A DNA stretch of 64,000 bases from Paenibacillus massiliensis subsp. panacisoli DSM 21345 (GTDB lineage Bacteria; Bacillota; Bacilli; Paenibacillales; Paenibacillaceae), in the NCBI RefSeq assembly GCF_000426545.1, contig NZ_AUFO01000009.1:248001-312000 (forward strand), given 5' to 3'. The position numbers and the translations under genes are program-made. Shown piece by piece: positions 6,381 through 35,759 of the stretch (positions are counted from its first letter, which is position 1; every line of letters begins with the position of its first letter). The notes beneath the pieces were generated by a model. That model had not been told where the DNA came from, ran no database searches, and worked only from the letters and a program-made list of their open reading frames with translations.

Positions 6381-7025
6381 CTATTTCTTGCTAATGACCT
6401 GCTGCGCCTTGGCTACATATTGTGCAGCCGTCTCGGTGATCAGATCGTAGCGTCCATCCTTGGCCGGAGCCGTCAGATTGCCGCCGATGCCGACAGCGAT
6501 ACAGCCGTTGTTCAGCCACTCTTGAATGTTGTCCAGGTCTACGCCGCCTGTTGGCATGATTTGCACGTGAGGCATCGGACCTTTGACCGCTTTTACAAAA
6601 TCAGGACCCAGTGCGCTACCCGGGAACAGCTTGAGCACATCCACGCCCAGCTTCAGGGCTTCCTTCATTTCATTCAGCGTCATGCAACCAGGCATGTAAG
6701 GCACGCTGTACAGGTTACACATCTTGGCAGTCTCCTCGTCAAAGGAAGGACTCACCACGAACTCTGCACCAGCAATAATGGAAATCCGAGCCGTGAGCGG
6801 GTCCAGTACCGTTCCTGCACCGATCACAGCTTTATCCTTGAATATGGATTTGAGCTTACGAATGACCTGATCTGCCTCTGGCGTCGTGAACGTCAGCTCG
6901 ATATTGGTCAGACCACCCTCGATGCAAGCTTCAGACATCTTGAAGGCAGAATCCGGATCATTGGCACGAATAACAGCCACGACACCCAGGGATTGAAGAT
7001 TGTTCAGCACTCTCATTTTGTTCAT
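6381..7025 (-). CDS. kdgA: 2-keto-3-deoxy-6-phosphogluconate aldolase
   Basis: 214-residue class I aldolase of the KDPG/KHG family, splitting KDPG into pyruvate and glyceraldehyde-3-phosphate. The Schiff-base lysine lies in DVLKLFPGS, the Glu in NIELTFTT, and the phosphate loop is MPTGGV. It follows kduI by 18 bases and is probably co-transcribed with it. Together with the divergent kinase gene it completes the route KDG to KDPG to central metabolism. The length matches the family. Confidence 0.93.
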   Translation of the reverse strand: MNKMRVLNNLQSLGVVAVIRANDPDSAFKMSEACIEGGLTNIELTFTTPEADQVIRKLKSIFKDKAVIGAGTVLDPLTARISIIAGAEFVVSPSFDEETAKMCNLYSVPYMPGCMTLNEMKEALKLGVDVLKLFPGSALGPDFVKAVKGPMPHVQIMPTGGVDLDNIQEWLNNGCIAVGIGGNLTAPAKDGRYDLITETAAQYVAKAQQVISKK

Positions 7026-7043
7026 TGTTGCATCCTTCCCGGA

Positions 7044-7874
7044 TTAACGCAGCTCATCCATGGCTACAGCGTCCATATCCTTGTAAGTGTAGTTTTCTCC
7101 GGCCATAGCCCAGATGAAGGTATAGTTACCTGTCGCCGATCCACAGTGGATAGACCAAGGCGGGGAAATGACAGCTTCCTCATTCTTCATGACAATGTGG
7201 CGCGTCTGAGTCGGCTCGCCCATCATATGGAACATACGAACTTGCTCAGCCATCTCGAAGTAGAAGTATACTTCTGTGCGGCGGTCATGCACGTGTGTAG
7301 GCATGGAGTTCCACACGCTGCCTGCATTCAGGGCAGTCATCCCCATACACAGCTGACAGCTTTGGATGCCGTCCTCGTGAATGTATTTGCGCAGCACACG
7401 GCTATTAGCAGTCTCTTGAGAGCCGAGGTCATCAGCAGGCACTTCGGAGAAGGCAAGCTTCTGAATCGGATATGTCTTATGAGCATTAGCAGATACGAAA
7501 TAGAATTTCGCAGGGTTAGAGGAGGATTCGCTCTCGAAGATCAGCTCCTTGCTGCCCAGGCCCACATACAGGCAATCCTTCAGCACCATCGGGTAAGTCT
7601 CGCCATCTACACGAATCGAACCCGGTCCGCCAACATTGAAAATACCAATCTCCCGGCGCTCCAGGAAATAATCAGCTTTAATCTCGTCATAGCCCTTCAG
7701 CTCGACTGGTCCGTTCACAGGCAGAATACCACCAGTAATCAGACGATCCTCCAGTGAGTAGCAAGCTCTCACTTCATCAGCTACGAATAGATCTTGAATC
7801 AAATAGTGCTCACGAAGCTCCTCCGTGGTAAAGGTCTTGGCATGCTCGGGATGAGTGGAATAACGTTTGTCCAT
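7044..7874 (-). CDS. kduI: 5-dehydro-4-deoxy-D-glucuronate isomerase
   Basis: 276-residue cupin isomerase converting 5-keto-4-deoxyuronate to 2,5-diketo-3-deoxygluconate, the first cytoplasmic step for unsaturated uronates released from pectin. The metal-binding stretch MPTHVHDRRTEVYFYF supplies His/His/Glu, and a C-terminal His lies in PPWSIHCGSA. It is the first gene of the operon and is divergent from the KDG kinase gene across a 303-base promoter region with a candidate KdgR site. The length is normal for the family. Confidence 0.93.
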   Translation of the reverse strand: MDKRYSTHPEHAKTFTTEELREHYLIQDLFVADEVRACYSLEDRLITGGILPVNGPVELKGYDEIKADYFLERREIGIFNVGGPGSIRVDGETYPMVLKDCLYVGLGSKELIFESESSSNPAKFYFVSANAHKTYPIQKLAFSEVPADDLGSQETANSRVLRKYIHEDGIQSCQLCMGMTALNAGSVWNSMPTHVHDRRTEVYFYFEMAEQVRMFHMMGEPTQTRHIVMKNEEAVISPPWSIHCGSATGNYTFIWAMAGENYTYKDMDAVAMDELR

Positions 7875-30161: not shown

Positions 30162-30426
30162 ATTAATCAGTGCAATAGGTTGTTAAATGGTACGAATAAT
30201 CATCGATAATCTCTCGTTCGCAAACCTAGCATGAAAATGGTAGCAAAGGTTTGTACCAGAAAGAAGCACTCCTTACTTATAGAGTTTGTTACTTTTGGGG
30301 TGGAGTTACCCGTCAAATAAACCGTAGGGGCCGGCTCTCTGCACAAACCGCCGCAGCCCGGAAAAACCTTTTTCCGAGGACTGCGAACAGAAAATGCTAA
30401 TGATCGAATCATTTCTGATTCTCAAA

Positions 30427-30900
30427 TGGAAGCTCAAAACATGGATGTACTACTGAAGAACTGTGTAGGCACGGATGTTCATCAGAAAACGATTGTCATG
30501 TGGAAGGCAACATACTAATCGAGGTTCGTACGTTCGGTACACTAACCAAGCAATTGTCCGATATGCTCGGGTGGCTTGAGTTCAAGCCTATTACTCATTT
30601 GGCTATTGAAATCAACTGAAAACCTGGTTATTTCAGATGTGTTCGGCATATCGGACTTAACTTGATGAGTCGTCTGGTCAGTCAGGGTTATGTGGATGTT
30701 GAAGATGTGGAAGCGTGTAGGCAATCTTATGAAAGAATGGCCTTATGCGAAGTTGACAATCTGACCCATTTCAATTGTTCGTATTCGTAGCCCTTCATTA
30801 ATGAAAAAGCCGGGCACTGAGAGAAGGGATGTTGCTGTTCTCCTGAGAGAAAGCGGCGCATTGACCGATTTAAAGCCTTTTAGTATAAAACATACATGAG
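30427..30900 (+). mobile_element. Decayed IS110-family transposase remnant
   Basis: Reading across frames gives the start of an IS110 transposase. From 30427 comes a frame with CVGTDVHQKTIVMW (the DEDD-domain first Asp motif) that stops at 30516. From 30518, in another frame, comes IEVRTFGTLTKQLSDMLGWL ending ITHLAIE and a stop, where the family has THVAMES. Near 30800 is KPGTERRDVAVLLRESG, like the family K-x-D-x-x-D-x-x-x-L-L segment. There are multiple stops and frame changes and no C-terminal Ser-rich domain, so it is inactive. Flanks 30162-30426 show no gene and may be the old element end. Confidence 0.65.
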
Positions 30901-31116
30901 TTTCAAGAAATGCTGGATGCTTACCAGTCCGAGGTTGATGCGAGCAATGCCGATGTCGATCCTTCTGAGTCAAGATCAGGCGGGAGTTTGGCAAACATCT
31001 CGTCATCTATACCGAAGGCTAGCACCATTGCAATACTGTCTTCCACCGAGGTTGGCATTGTTGCGGGCACGTTACTGATTATTAGAAGGAAAAAGGGACT
31101 CTCAAATGGACAATAA
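30898..31116 (+). pseudogene. C-terminal fragment with membrane segment and basic tail
   Basis: A frame of about 72 codons (FQEMLDAYQSEVDAS... then a Ser-rich stretch, a short hydrophobic run TEVGIVAGTLLII and RRKK) with no ribosome site or proper start. It looks like the tail of a membrane-anchored protein cut by the IS insertion or deletion. It overlaps the next gene by 11 bases. The call rests only on composition. Confidence 0.3.
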
Positions 31117-31931: not shown

Positions 31932-32333
31932 TTATTTAAAACGGAATGCTACACTTCGCTTGTTATCTGCTTTTTTTAGCCAGTGTCTGATGCCTTTTCC
32001 GGCATAAGGTTCATCACTAAAACGTGGAATAACATGTAGGTGTGAATGCATGATATGCTGACCTCCCACGGCATTACAGTTCCAGCCAATATTGTATCCT
32101 TCAGGCTGAAGTTTTTCATCCAAGATAGATTTTACTTCTAGTAATAATGAGTATGTTGCAGACCATTCTTCTTCTGTTAGGTCAAATACTGTTTCACGAT
32201 GTTTAATAGGAACTATGAGTCCTGAACCAATTAAAACTTCTTGTGGAGTTTGCAGGAAAATACAATGTTCATTTTGCATTATTACTTGTTGCTGCTCCAC
32301 CAAGTCAAGATTACACAAAGGACATTCCTTCAT
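31932..32333 (-). CDS. HIT family hydrolase
   Basis: 133-residue histidine-triad nucleotide-binding protein. The catalytic triad reads HSHLHV (H-x-H-x-H-hydrophobic) in a GGQHIMHSHLHVIPR context. A CPLC pair near the N-terminus (ECPLCNL) may bind zinc, as in some HIT proteins. The ATG at 32333 is chosen because GGAAGGTGG is seven bases upstream; a GTG at 32345 overlaps that site. Family members cleave AMP- or GMP-linked substrates; the actual one is unknown. It lies downstream of the peptide/regulator cassette, beyond that cassette's terminator. Confidence 0.88.
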   Translation of the reverse strand: MKECPLCNLDLVEQQQVIMQNEHCIFLQTPQEVLIGSGLIVPIKHRETVFDLTEEEWSATYSLLLEVKSILDEKLQPEGYNIGWNCNAVGGQHIMHSHLHVIPRFSDEPYAGKGIRHWLKKADNKRSVAFRFK

Positions 32334-32403
32334 TCCAAAAACCACCTTCCATCAAACATAAGCTGACTCTGAAAATTTCAGAGAGAACCCCATTGTACAA
32401 GGA

Positions 32404-32455
32404 AACGCTCTATGTAGTGACTTTGCTCATTCAAAATCACATATACATAGAGCGT
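32404..32455 (-). terminator. Hairpin closing the XRE-TPR/peptide cassette
   Basis: 12-bp perfect inverted repeat AACGCTCTATGTA / TACATAGAGCGT(C) with a 27-nt loop, 38 bases after the peptide stop. On the minus strand it is followed by TTTCCTTG, a moderate T tract; on the plus strand by CTTTACTTTT. Confidence 0.65.
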
Positions 32456-32492
32456 CTTTACTTTTAAGAAAATCAAAAAGTTGTCAACTCAA

Positions 32493-32618
32493 TTATGCAC
32501 CACCAATATGACCCATAACTTGAATTGTCTTAATTAATTGGAGTGGCTCCATTAGAGCTAAAAAACATGCTAGGTTCAGGCTATGAACTACTAAGAAGCA
32601 CGCCGCCTTTCTGATCAT
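32493..32618 (-). CDS. Candidate pre-pro signalling peptide overlapping the XRE-TPR gene
   Basis: 41-residue frame starting with ATG inside the last 38 bases of the regulator gene (+1 frame) and ending 88 bases beyond its stop. It has the layout of exported Phr/AimP-type precursors: basic start MIRK, a hydrophobic stretch AACFLVVHSLNLACFLALM (residues 5-23), then a short polar tail ending QVMGHIGGA. A GGGA lies a few bases before the ATG. The Gly/Ala-rich C-terminus resembles hexapeptides of the SAIRGA/GMPRGA kind. It is followed by a hairpin. The overlap suggests translational coupling. Peptide activity is inference; the reading frame and its shape are seen directly. Confidence 0.6.
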   Translation of the reverse strand: MIRKAACFLVVHSLNLACFLALMEPLQLIKTIQVMGHIGGA

Positions 32619-33996
32619 TCCCTTCCCACACCTTTCGTATCAGAGCGTTATACTGTGTCTTCATTTCTGCTGTCGCAACTGATCTAAAATTTTCAAATAG
32701 ACCTACACAATTCATTAATAATACCTTATTGTTCATTTTATGCGCTAGTTCCAAACAATCCATTAAACATTTAAAGCCATGAGAATAATCCCTTCTGCAT
32801 AAAAAGTACTTAGACAATTCATACCAGAAACGCGCCTCTTCTATAGAAAGAACTTGTTGATTGTACGTATCATTAAATTTATGCCGCTGAGGATCAACAA
32901 TTTGCTGTTCAAACCTCTTCAGAATTGAATCTATATTTATATTGTATTTGTTAGCTGCTTCAACCACATTCAAAAGTTCTGCAAAAATTTCATTTTCCCC
33001 TTCGATGTAATCCACATATTCAGGTAGTACATGAATCTCCCCTGCCATCAGACGATTCACACACAGGTTTACTTTAGTCCATTGCTGGAAGGATACAATC
33101 CACTTCTTGGTATCCTCATCCTGCTCCTTGACCCAACTTAAATCGGCATAGGCTTGGATATGCTTCATCCCTTCTGCATAAACTCCACGTTCATCACAAG
33201 CACTTGCTGATAGAAAATCGGCATAAGCAATATATACAAATAATGGCCTGCTTAATCTTGATAGAGCATCCATATCTCCTCGATCAGATCTCTGCTTCAA
33301 CTCATACTGAATTCTCGCTTTCTGTCCCATGTCCTGAGCCAGTTCAAAGACCGTATCCCAGTGCCCCAATGAACGATAGAGATTCGCCAGATCCTTCAGG
33401 GCGTCGAGCTGCTCCAGCTCACCTAGTCTTTCTGCATATGGACCAAACTCCACAGCCGCCTTCAAATTCTGTATCTGATCATCGCCAATGCGAATCTTGA
33501 ACAGCCTGTACTGACATATTGCCAATCGCTCGGAATGCTGGTTCTTCTCGCTAAATGCTATATTCTTATATAATAGTGCCGCTGCCTCATACCGTTCCTG
33601 CCCAAAAAAATCCTCAGCCAGCTCGAACACCAGCGGAGCATAGTAGGTAACGTTCTCCATAAGTATGCTTACAACCTGTTCCATACAATCCAGTCTGTTA
33701 AGCTCCATACAACGCTGCAAAAAAGGCTTGACCCTTCGCCAATTCAAAGGGGTATCCCGCATGTACTCTTGTACATATCGGCTGTAGAAATAATCCTCAG
33801 GCTTATCCATCGCTTTGGTAATGCGGTCCATCTGGTGCACAGAGATCGAACGGTTCGTCATCACAATGCCGCTCACCGTACCTGGATTCAGACCCGCCAC
33901 CCCGCCGAACTCACTCATGTTCAGGTCATGCTCCAGCAGATAATCTCTGACCTCTGTTCGAATTGTAGCTGTATGCAACGGAATCCTCCTTCCCAT
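32581..33996 (-). CDS. XRE-HTH regulator with TPR-like sensor (RRNPP-like)
   Basis: 471 residues. An XRE-type helix-turn-helix sits at about 10-60 (VRDYLLEHDLNMSEFGGVAGLNPGTVSGIVMTNRSISVHQMDRITKAM). The remaining 400 residues are all-helical with repeated helix pairs (AEDFFGQERYEAAALLYKNIAFSEKNQHSERLAICQYRLF, LANLYRSLGHWDTVFELAQD), the build of PlcR, NprR and AimR peptide receptors. A promoter with TATAAT and TTGTTT is visible upstream. Its 3' end overlaps a candidate signalling peptide gene. The likely role is DNA binding switched by an imported peptide; targets are unknown. Confidence 0.75.
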   Translation of the reverse strand: MGRRIPLHTATIRTEVRDYLLEHDLNMSEFGGVAGLNPGTVSGIVMTNRSISVHQMDRITKAMDKPEDYFYSRYVQEYMRDTPLNWRRVKPFLQRCMELNRLDCMEQVVSILMENVTYYAPLVFELAEDFFGQERYEAAALLYKNIAFSEKNQHSERLAICQYRLFKIRIGDDQIQNLKAAVEFGPYAERLGELEQLDALKDLANLYRSLGHWDTVFELAQDMGQKARIQYELKQRSDRGDMDALSRLSRPLFVYIAYADFLSASACDERGVYAEGMKHIQAYADLSWVKEQDEDTKKWIVSFQQWTKVNLCVNRLMAGEIHVLPEYVDYIEGENEIFAELLNVVEAANKYNINIDSILKRFEQQIVDPQRHKFNDTYNQQVLSIEEARFWYELSKYFLCRRDYSHGFKCLMDCLELAHKMNNKVLLMNCVGLFENFRSVATAEMKTQYNALIRKVWEGNDQKGGVLLSSS

Positions 33997-34310
33997 TTTC
34001 TTTTTTTATGATGTAATGGAAATTATATGTATATACCAACTCTATTATTATACCTTAATTCACCATATAAAAACAAAATTACCCATATATTGATTTATAT
34101 ATAAGAGATGATTTCAGAAATACAAAAAAAACCACCGTTTAAGGCGATCCGCGCCCAGTGATTTCATACGTGAATATGTGGCTACTGGATATACTGCTAC
34201 CCGTCTCTAACTTCATTAATGTAGTAATCACGTTATTCGTGTATGGTAACATAAGAATAGCAATAGGGACCGGTTGCACCCGATCCCCACAGTTACCGCT
34301 AAAAGAGCCT
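33997..34310. promoter_or_regulatory. Upstream region of the XRE-TPR gene with a sigma-A-type promoter
   Basis: On the minus strand TTGTTT (34071-34076) and TATAAT (34047-34052) are 18 bases apart, about 55 bases before the regulator start. The rest, to the convergent-side end of the DUF2252 gene at 34311, is AT-rich with no protein-like frame. Confidence 0.55.
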
Positions 34311-35651
34311 CTATTCACCCGTCTGGAAGTTCTCGACCCATTCGCAGAATAGCTGATAGTCCTGCTCCACCTGATTCGCATAGCCGAACGCCCAGCGAGA
34401 AATGTGCTTCACGAAGCCTTCAGGACTGTTACCCATCGCCTCATAGATGGCATACTCGCTATGATAGGCCAGGACTCCCTGCTCCACATCCGCATCCGCG
34501 CGGGCATGCATCTTGGCGGTCAGGCACGCCATAGCAGACAAGATGTCAGCCATATCCTCCGTATCCTGAATCTGCTCCAGCTTGAGCCGCTTCTTATATG
34601 GTGAGCGCTCCCGCACATAGAAGTCCCTATCCTCCAGCGTCAGGTATCCGAGATAAGGATCTGCCTTGTGATGCATCGCCTGCTGAGTCGCAGTCACTCG
34701 CTTACCCTGCTGATCGAAGCTATCCCAGAACACGTCGGCATAAGGCAGAAAATACGCTGGCACGGGCACGCGTACCTCCTTGACCTCCAGCACGATGTCA
34801 TCCTCTCCCCGCTGACTCTGACCCCCTTCAATAAGAACATAATACCGATCCAGCCCGATCGAAGCGGTCCCTGAGCCATGCTTGATCGCAACATCCTTGA
34901 TCCGGTAGTACCCTGTCTCTTCCATGGAAGAACGAAGTGTGGACAGATACATCGGCCAAGCCCCCTCCAACTGCTGCTGCTCCTCTGGCGTGGGCACGAC
35001 CAGCTCACTATTCTCCAGGAATACTCGATCGGTCTGCATGACGGCGGTCACCTTCTCCAGAAAATGCCCTTGCTGACGCTTCTCCAGCTTGCGAAGCAGC
35101 TTGCGGATCAAGCCCTTGGCATGCTGCTTGTCCATCACGAATTTGCCAGGATCAGCCTTGTGCTTGGCATAACGGCGAATCTGCTTGTAATAGGCCAGCG
35201 CATAATGCTCCAGCATGGCGAACTGGCGCTCCTGGTCATAACCGAGCTGACGGCAGACCAGCGCAATGCTTGCAGACATCCGCAGTACATCATACAGATA
35301 GGAGCCGATGTAGCCTTCGTCAAAATCATTCACATCATACACAATCTGACCCGATTCATCACAGAAGGCCCCGAAATTCTCGAAGTGCAGATCGCCCTGA
35401 ATCCATGTCGGCTGCTCTACCGATGTGTGATAGGGAAAATAATGACGTGTAGCATCATAGTAGAACAGATAGGCACTTCCCCGGAAGAAAGAGAACGGCG
35501 TCTGCATCATTTTACGGTATTTCTCAGCTCGCTTCTCCCGATCCAGCTCCATAAGCTTCTCATCGAACTCTTCCAGCACCGAGATGAGCGTATCCCGGCG
35601 CAGCTTGGTACGTGTGCGAATGACATTGTCGACAATGGCTGGCTTGACCAT
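34311..35651 (-). CDS. DUF2252 family protein
   Basis: 446 residues of the DUF2252 family, distantly related to kinase-like folds; no activity is established. Conserved stretches include FFRGSAYLFYYDATRHYFP, IQGDLHFENFGAF (resembling a kinase catalytic loop, D-x-H-x-x-N), VYDVNDFDEGYIGSYLYDVLRM (DFD-like metal loop) and GTASIGLDRYYVLIEG. The ATG at 35651 has GGGGGGC upstream; the frame extends 30 codons further without a ribosome site. It stands alone between the XRE and ECF loci. The full family length is present. Confidence 0.85.
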   Translation of the reverse strand: MVKPAIVDNVIRTRTKLRRDTLISVLEEFDEKLMELDREKRAEKYRKMMQTPFSFFRGSAYLFYYDATRHYFPYHTSVEQPTWIQGDLHFENFGAFCDESGQIVYDVNDFDEGYIGSYLYDVLRMSASIALVCRQLGYDQERQFAMLEHYALAYYKQIRRYAKHKADPGKFVMDKQHAKGLIRKLLRKLEKRQQGHFLEKVTAVMQTDRVFLENSELVVPTPEEQQQLEGAWPMYLSTLRSSMEETGYYRIKDVAIKHGSGTASIGLDRYYVLIEGGQSQRGEDDIVLEVKEVRVPVPAYFLPYADVFWDSFDQQGKRVTATQQAMHHKADPYLGYLTLEDRDFYVRERSPYKKRLKLEQIQDTEDMADILSAMACLTAKMHARADADVEQGVLAYHSEYAIYEAMGNSPEGFVKHISRWAFGYANQVEQDYQLFCEWVENFQTGE

Positions 35652-35759
35652 CAAGATGCCCCCCTGTATGTAAGAACCTGAATTATGCCTCCTATCATAA
35701 CGCACATCAGGGCTACACTCCAAGAAGAGAATACAGGCCACGTAATCTTGTGTAGCGCT

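Follow-up and report, generated by a model that had tools for sequence, protein, structure and literature searches.

An AloR-AloP-type receptor-peptide pair of Paenibacillus massiliensis subsp. panacisoli, and evidence that its sensor half and peptide have a history separate from the DNA-binding half

The window, the whole 64,000-nucleotide stretch of Paenibacillus massiliensis subsp. panacisoli DSM 21345 DNA analysed here, contains a predicted HTH-TPR receptor gene overlapped at its 3' end by a 41-codon ORF, and judged by sequence the two form an AloR-AloP quorum-sensing pair of the RRNPP type. We put the probability of the explanation as a whole, namely an AloR-AloP pair whose sensor half and peptide have a history separate from that of the DNA-binding half, at about 0.88. 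Comparison of receptor genes showed that Alo receptors join a DNA-binding half and a sensor half of different histories, and a separate history of the sensor half with its peptide is well supported across the family. It is likely that the sensor half and the overlapping peptide gene make up a specificity block that recombines between tandem, chromosomal, and plasmid copies and so comes to be joined to DNA-binding halves that stay stable. The earlier note on this DNA had recognized the type of the pair correctly, as an RRNPP-type receptor with its propeptide, and the sequences support it; it missed the existing description of Alo as well as the C-terminal half with the peptide as an exchangeable block.

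The Alo kind is already known in Paenibacillus, and was described in 2020 in Paenibacillus polymyxa. In the available text of that paper (Voichek et al. 2020; PMC7425212), an Alo system consists of an HTH-TPR receptor and an exported propeptide, which is short and whose gene often overlaps the receptor gene; P. polymyxa ATCC 842 has 16 Alo loci, essentially all Alo systems are in Paenibacillaceae, and orphan receptors occur in the family. Alo13, the sole tested member, uses the peptide SHGRGG, which switches off an AloR-activated spo0E gene. The features of the window locus are as follows.

34311..35741, minus strand: DUF2252 gene, the upstream anchor of the locus (Pfam 1.9e-87; 1354/1420 bases identical to P. 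massiliensis)
32581..33996, minus strand: aloR-type receptor gene, XRE-like HTH and TPR solenoid; 471 codons from ATG, with TTG 33978 the likely true start
33292..33996, minus strand: N-terminal half of the receptor (HTH and first repeats, about codons 1-235 from the ATG); 96% DNA identity to P. massiliensis
32581..33291, minus strand: C-terminal (sensor) half of the receptor, the differing block; 66% DNA identity to P. massiliensis
32493..32618, minus strand: aloP-type propeptide gene, 41 codons; AloP profile E 0.0015
32581..32618, minus strand: aloR/aloP overlap, 38 bases; identical offset in 75/96 pairs, window included
32496..32513, minus strand: predicted mature signal GHIGGA, the last six codons of aloP; by analogy with the Alo13 hexapeptide (PMC7425212, available text) and from shared tails
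32403..32457 (approximate), minus strand: hairpin after aloP; z -4.0, no T-run behind it
31932..32345, minus strand: HIT-domain gene inside the segment differing from P. massiliensis; Pfam HIT 2.4e-12

Both ORFs of the earlier note, a 471-codon receptor gene and a 41-codon ORF sharing 38 bases with it, were found in place. The receptor length was revised: the 471-codon ORF is present, and translation probably starts at TTG 33978, giving 465 codons, because GGAGG lies 6 bases ahead of this TTG and the upstream ATG is out of frame in P. massiliensis, where a one-base difference between the ATG and the TTG leaves the TTG alone in frame with the receptor gene. The hairpin said to close the pair, at about 32403-32457, is a strong one (-34.6 kcal/mol for a 116-base stretch, z -4.0, with 1/200 shuffles as good), but it lacks a T-run and is absent from the list produced by the terminator scan. 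Upstream of the aloR genes, 8-mer counts in 116 stretches led us to claim no shared operator; GTATATAC, which precedes the window gene and was tried as an operator, was not enriched in these stretches (1 found versus 0.74 expected).

The small ORF translates as MIRKAACFLVVHSLNLACFLALMEPLQLIKTIQVMGHIGGA and ends in MGHIGGA. At 41 amino acids, with a hydrophobic N-terminus by our own score and a start inside aloR, it falls within the 32-50 amino acids given for Alo peptides. A profile built from 92 other AloP-type peptides, with the window peptide left out, ranked this peptide first among 625 small ORFs of the window, at E 0.0015 (whole sequence; best single domain, 0.013), followed by an ORF at E 0.35. 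The counterpart in P. massiliensis is MIKKAAYCLVVHSFSLACILTLIEHNHLLKGIQVMGRVGGF, with the overlap unchanged, and 75/96 pairs share the overlap, so that conservation in relatives, which the earlier note had set as a check, was found. Between the window and P. massiliensis peptide genes, 12/29 substitutions past the overlap were synonymous versus 23.6% expected (p = 0.026), and the synonymous-codon bias sought in the small ORF is thus present but weak. For the whole peptide the figure was 17/37 versus 22% expected (p 0.001), which takes in the overlap, where the receptor frame constrains too. At the level of sequence, these comparisons confirmed that the small ORF is more than chance and looks like a real gene.

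The tail IQVMGHIGGA of the window peptide resembles IQVQGHIGGS and IQIQGHIGGA of two other Alo-type loci (L031 and L005), the latter ending exactly in GHIGGA as well. Among 96 peptides, window included, 19 end in IGGA and 13 in HGGA. The proposal that the mature signal is a C-terminal 5-7-mer fits these family tails, and by analogy GHIGGA is the most likely signal. Export of the window peptide could be weak, because its hydrophobic core scored 2.11, the second lowest of 96 (median 2.64); H and N residues lie inside the core. This weak core, the orphan receptors known among Alo (PMC7425212, available text), and a frameshift in the P. massiliensis copy of the receptor would all suit a decaying or orphan Alo receptor beside an accidental, non-exported remnant. 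We consider such a remnant unlikely, given that the window receptor is intact, that the peptide frame is open in both species with the synonymous excess described above (overlap included), and that the tail is close to those of L031 and L005.

Searches with Pfam and NCBIfam gave no useful match to the receptor or the peptide, and a PDB sequence search with the receptor returned nothing relevant and no AimR match. Relatives were found by searching 197 genomes, comprising the window's own and related ones, with the receptor: 97 had matches, and the window's own genome had 18. An export-type ORF, called by our own score with some doubtful cases, lies at the 3' end of 102/117 distinct full-length receptors and of 9/10 aligned full-length receptors of the window's own genome. 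The alignment had 118 rows, the window being present twice (L001 and WIN), and 103 rows had a peptide by our score; the WIN duplicate and six loci whose peptides were run-on, truncated, or doubtful (L017, L022, L040, L081, L085, and L086) were removed before the covariation test, which left 96. The 38-base overlap recurs in 75 of these 96 clean pairs, window included.

Receptor matches were also obtained in 33 plasmid records, the best ones being on P. polymyxa plasmids. The best named match was a receptor on plasmid NZ_CP024796.1 of ATCC 842 (57.2% identity over 98% of the query), where a small "hypothetical protein" overlapping the receptor 3' end is already annotated; ATCC 842 is the strain in which Alo was defined, and this receptor was matched without an assigned Alo number. 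Records named Brevibacterium (2) and Arthrobacter (1) are among the plasmid matches. All six plasmid-borne Alo-type receptors that were viewed (L139-L144) adjoin or lie near AbrB-family genes, and three of them (L142, L143, and L144) are also near listed spo0E-like genes. These neighbours suggest plasmid-borne control of host sporulation timing.

An AlphaFold model of the receptor, made from a 68-sequence alignment (pLDDT 89, pTM 0.83), has HTH-like helices followed by a TPR superhelix. Four helices at residues 12-62 of the model correspond to the N-terminal HTH of Alo receptors; residues 14-160 matched a PHROGs transcriptional regulator (E 0.0003), a Pfam HTH match was absent, and the alignment with the AimR-DNA complex begins at residue 8, with high rmsd. 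The structural matches of the model were mostly TPR superhelices, in which NprR-NprX (Z 16.4, 277 residues, rmsd 6.8), Rap, and AimR were mixed with unrelated TPR proteins. The modelling check set by the earlier note thus returned the TPR fold. Since RRNPP receptors ranked no higher than other TPR proteins, the search supports the fold and not the membership. A low-confidence linker lies at about residues 237-251 of the model, and the break at the window locus falls beside it.

An arbitrium-like switch of phage lysogeny, AimR-AimP, was weighed against the AloR-AloP reading. AimR structures aligned along residues 8-460 of the model (364-370 residues), but at an rmsd of 18.5-19, and AloR and AimR fall into a single clan in a structural phylogeny (PMC12700828, available text). 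The relatives found here were in Paenibacillus, related genomes, and plasmids; only 1/50,697 phage records matched, at 24%, and Pfam on six neighbouring proteins identified DUF2252, sigma-70, and HIT, otherwise nothing convincing, and no phage family. On these matches and the six neighbours scanned, a phage switch is the least probable of the explanations considered, with hardly any likelihood.

The AloR-AloP pair of the window was compared with that of P. massiliensis (L061, a named record; also G036), in which the same locus lies beside the same DUF2252 gene, 95% identical; we took it to be the same place because 1354/1420 bases of this flank are identical. Receptor DNA identity was 96% over about 235 codons, then 66%, with a step at codon 235 whose LLR was 112 versus 13.8 for the maximum of 2000 permutations. 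Synonymous differences per site in 30-codon bins were 0.00-0.35 up to codon 240 and 0.54-0.91, near saturation, beyond it. The P. massiliensis peptide beside the orthologous receptor ends in QDHIGGG, unlike that of the window. Beginning 24 bases (by DNA match) or 54 bases (by first start codon) after this peptide gene, P. massiliensis has a leftover consisting of about the last 40 codons of a window-like receptor and a counterpart of the window peptide. Identity of the leftover to the window is 79%, versus 95% for the flanking gene, and we therefore regard it as a related older allele, not a simple remnant of the window's block. The C-halves of the window and P. massiliensis are still mutual nearest (61%) among the receptors compared, so any exchange at this locus would have involved old alleles within a single lineage. 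No donor of the C-half was found among these receptors, either for the window locus or for the pair L047/L065 described below.

All retrieved loci were screened for receptor tails left over from displaced blocks. Only the P. massiliensis locus, seen in five loci that overlap one another, was a clear example; L103, L116, and L135 gave unjudged hits, two of which lie close to where a retrieved stretch ends, and displaced leftover blocks are not claimed as a general rule. The P. massiliensis receptor itself has a one-base frameshift near codon 126 (L061:3354-3412), the remainder being open in another frame, which is either real decay or a sequencing error.

The differing segment at the window locus also contains the HIT gene, which sits between aloP and a flank shared with P. 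massiliensis. At E<=1e-30 this gene was found in 1/75 genomes of the genus, namely the window's own, and not in the other 74; it was probably acquired, and possibly it is a passenger or an output of the pair. Its match to the HIT-family ThsC model of PADLOC (E 5.7e-11) may reflect no more than the HIT domain. Farther downstream, 30801-31116 of the window holds fragments of a type of gene that stands in tandem in P. massiliensis (L061:5639-6430 and 6520-7308), where the two products are closely similar, each with a start like that of a signal peptide and a C-terminus resembling a membrane anchor. A short ORF at 30426-30518 on the plus strand lies in the broken-up region downstream of the pair; we take it to resemble the N-terminus of an IS110-type transposase.

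Thirteen ortholog pairs of Alo-type loci between the two genomes were examined, seven along receptor codons and the other six by plain DNA comparison of the stretch that matched. Steps above every permutation were detected in 9/13 pairs, and no step in 4/13 (L052/L071, L054/L074, L057/L075, and L058/L076). Apart from the window locus, the steps in identity were:

L046/L066: step at codon 239, 0.98 to 0.52
L047/L065: step at codon 251, 0.99 to 0.76
L043/L060: step at codon 174, more gradual, 0.93 to 0.64
L045/L063: step, 0.98 to 0.91
L049/L068: step, 0.996 to 0.92
L051/L069: step in plain DNA, 0.92 to 0.68
L055/L073: step in plain DNA, 0.92 to 0.65
L053/L072: weak step, 0.95 to 0.84

L051, L053, and L055, among the stepped pairs, are broken or partial genes in the window's genome. 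The N-halves of L046/L066 are mutual nearest and 100% identical in protein (next, 66%), with C-halves that have other nearest relatives, and the same holds for L043/L060, with N-halves at 92%. In L047/L065 the C-halves remain mutual nearest (73%); here flanks of 98-100% surround a block, mostly at 0.63-0.80, that reaches roughly to where aloP ends. The differing block therefore comprises the sensor half and aloP, identity being back at 98-100% directly behind the peptide gene. For the seven pairs compared along codons, peptide tails differed in the window pair, L046/L066, L047/L065, and L043/L060, and were the same in L045/L063 and L052/L071. The remaining pair, L054/L074, is an aloR-like receptor with no step between the species and no export-type ORF by our score in either; by these features it is a stable orphan receptor.

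Trees of the two halves (codons 1-235 and 245-471 of 117 full-length receptors) disagreed strongly: 42/60 well-supported N-splits were contradicted by well-supported C-splits, versus 5/46 and 3/52 conflicts when random halves of the same region were used as a control. We preferred this split-conflict count to the AU test, because the latter had fewer replicates than needed, as the program itself warned, and rejected its split-half control tree too (deltaL 178; N tree, 4835). Of the 21 N-half clusters that had at least two members, 10 contained more than one C-half type, the cluster thresholds being unequal (N 0.93, C 0.80). Breaks fell in the bins of codons 140-299 in 113 of 175 clear-step pairs, which are not mutually independent, and elsewhere in the rest. 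Among plasmid receptors, P. polymyxa pairs had weak steps, the largest being 0.99 to 0.93 in L140/L141, and others had none. A C-half and a similar peptide are shared, and the N-half not, in L015/L087 (0.68 then 0.97) and L093/L125, and the C-half is more alike than the N-half in L004/L006 and L142/L006.

These data bear on whether the C-half merely evolves faster under diversifying selection, with no exchange of DNA. The C-half is indeed generally more variable: among 6903 row pairs, the N-half was more similar than the C-half by >0.13 (DNA) in 351 and the reverse held in 19, and at the window locus and in L047/L065 the C-halves are mutual nearest. However, synonymous sites jump at the step too, with unequal synonymous divergence on its two sides, and fourfold-site identity averaged 0.91 in the N-half versus 0.64 in the C-half for 53 pairs; these pairs were chosen for similar N-halves, so the absence of reverse cases among them proves nothing, and the half-tree control is the better guide. 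Faster change of the C-half also fails to account for the return of identity to 98-100% past aloP in L047/L065, for C-halves with other nearest relatives in L046/L066 and L043/L060, for reverse pairs such as L015/L087, and for a half-tree conflict far above the split-half controls. Selection without exchange is therefore, in our judgement, very improbable, and a joint exchange of sensor half and peptide remains the preferred reading.

Peptide similarity in the 96 pairs followed the C-half given the N-half (partial r 0.66, 0/1000 permutations) and not the N-half given the C-half (partial r 0.05, 98/1000 permutations). For the last eight peptide residues the partial r was 0.53 with the C-half (0/1000) and -0.05 with the N-half (893/1000). 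The covariation of peptide and TPR part for which the earlier note had called was thus found; it is expected from physical linkage alone and is no proof of binding.

From these results we infer a working scheme covering export, processing, binding, target promoters, and the recombination route. AloP would be exported by way of its hydrophobic N-terminus and trimmed to a C-terminal fragment, most likely GHIGGA; after re-uptake this fragment would bind in the TPR part of the receptor and so alter the action of AloR on its promoters. Recombination inside the receptor gene, with neighbouring receptor copies or plasmid copies as partners, would move sensor and signal together, because aloP overlaps the 3' end of aloR; the locus would thereby switch its signal, and the N-terminal half, and with it presumably the set of targets, would stay.

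How a peptide and its receptor change specificity jointly is an open problem in the evolution of signalling, and the Alo gene order puts the sensor half and the signal on one DNA stretch with its own history. If the scheme is true, whole receptor-signal specificities would be exchanged in one step, matching changes need not arise separately, and bacteria would re-tune whom they hear with the controlled targets unchanged. The natural chimaeras would offer material from which separate signal channels could be engineered in soil bacteria. In the literature searched, which was mostly open-access with supplements excluded, we found no account of mosaic receptors in Alo or in other RRNPP systems, and exchange of a sensor half with its peptide was not found in the available text of PMC7425212 or PMC9765709. 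The present comparisons suggest, as new, that sensor half and peptide are exchanged as a block while the DNA-binding half stays.

Among known systems, Alo (PMC7425212, available text) is like the window pair in its HTH-TPR receptor followed by a short export-type ORF that often overlaps it, its hexapeptide-like tail, and its many copies per genome. Alo13 differs in having spo0E directly downstream, whereas at the window no spo0E-like gene directly follows the pair and the HIT-domain gene comes next; spo0E is not required of Alo generally. AimR-AimP shares the receptor architecture, the small-peptide logic, and the structural clan (PMC12700828, available text), but arbitrium is phage-borne and the window receptor had no PDB sequence match to AimR. 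Rap-Phr of Bacillus likewise has a TPR receptor with an adjacent propeptide and a diversity driven by duplication and horizontal transfer, although Rap lacks an HTH; recombination between its receptors was sought, and the available text of PMC5199041 reports no evidence of Rap divergence through it. In agrBDC of Staphylococcus, whose variable region is in linkage and unlinked to agrA (PMC8768832, available text), and in the polymorphic comQXP of Bacillus (PMC4408185, available text), signal and sensing part covary beside conserved neighbours, as in Alo. The sensor of those two systems is a membrane histidine kinase, whereas that of Alo is the C-half of one DNA-binding protein, predicted to be cytoplasmic, whose N-half is kept.
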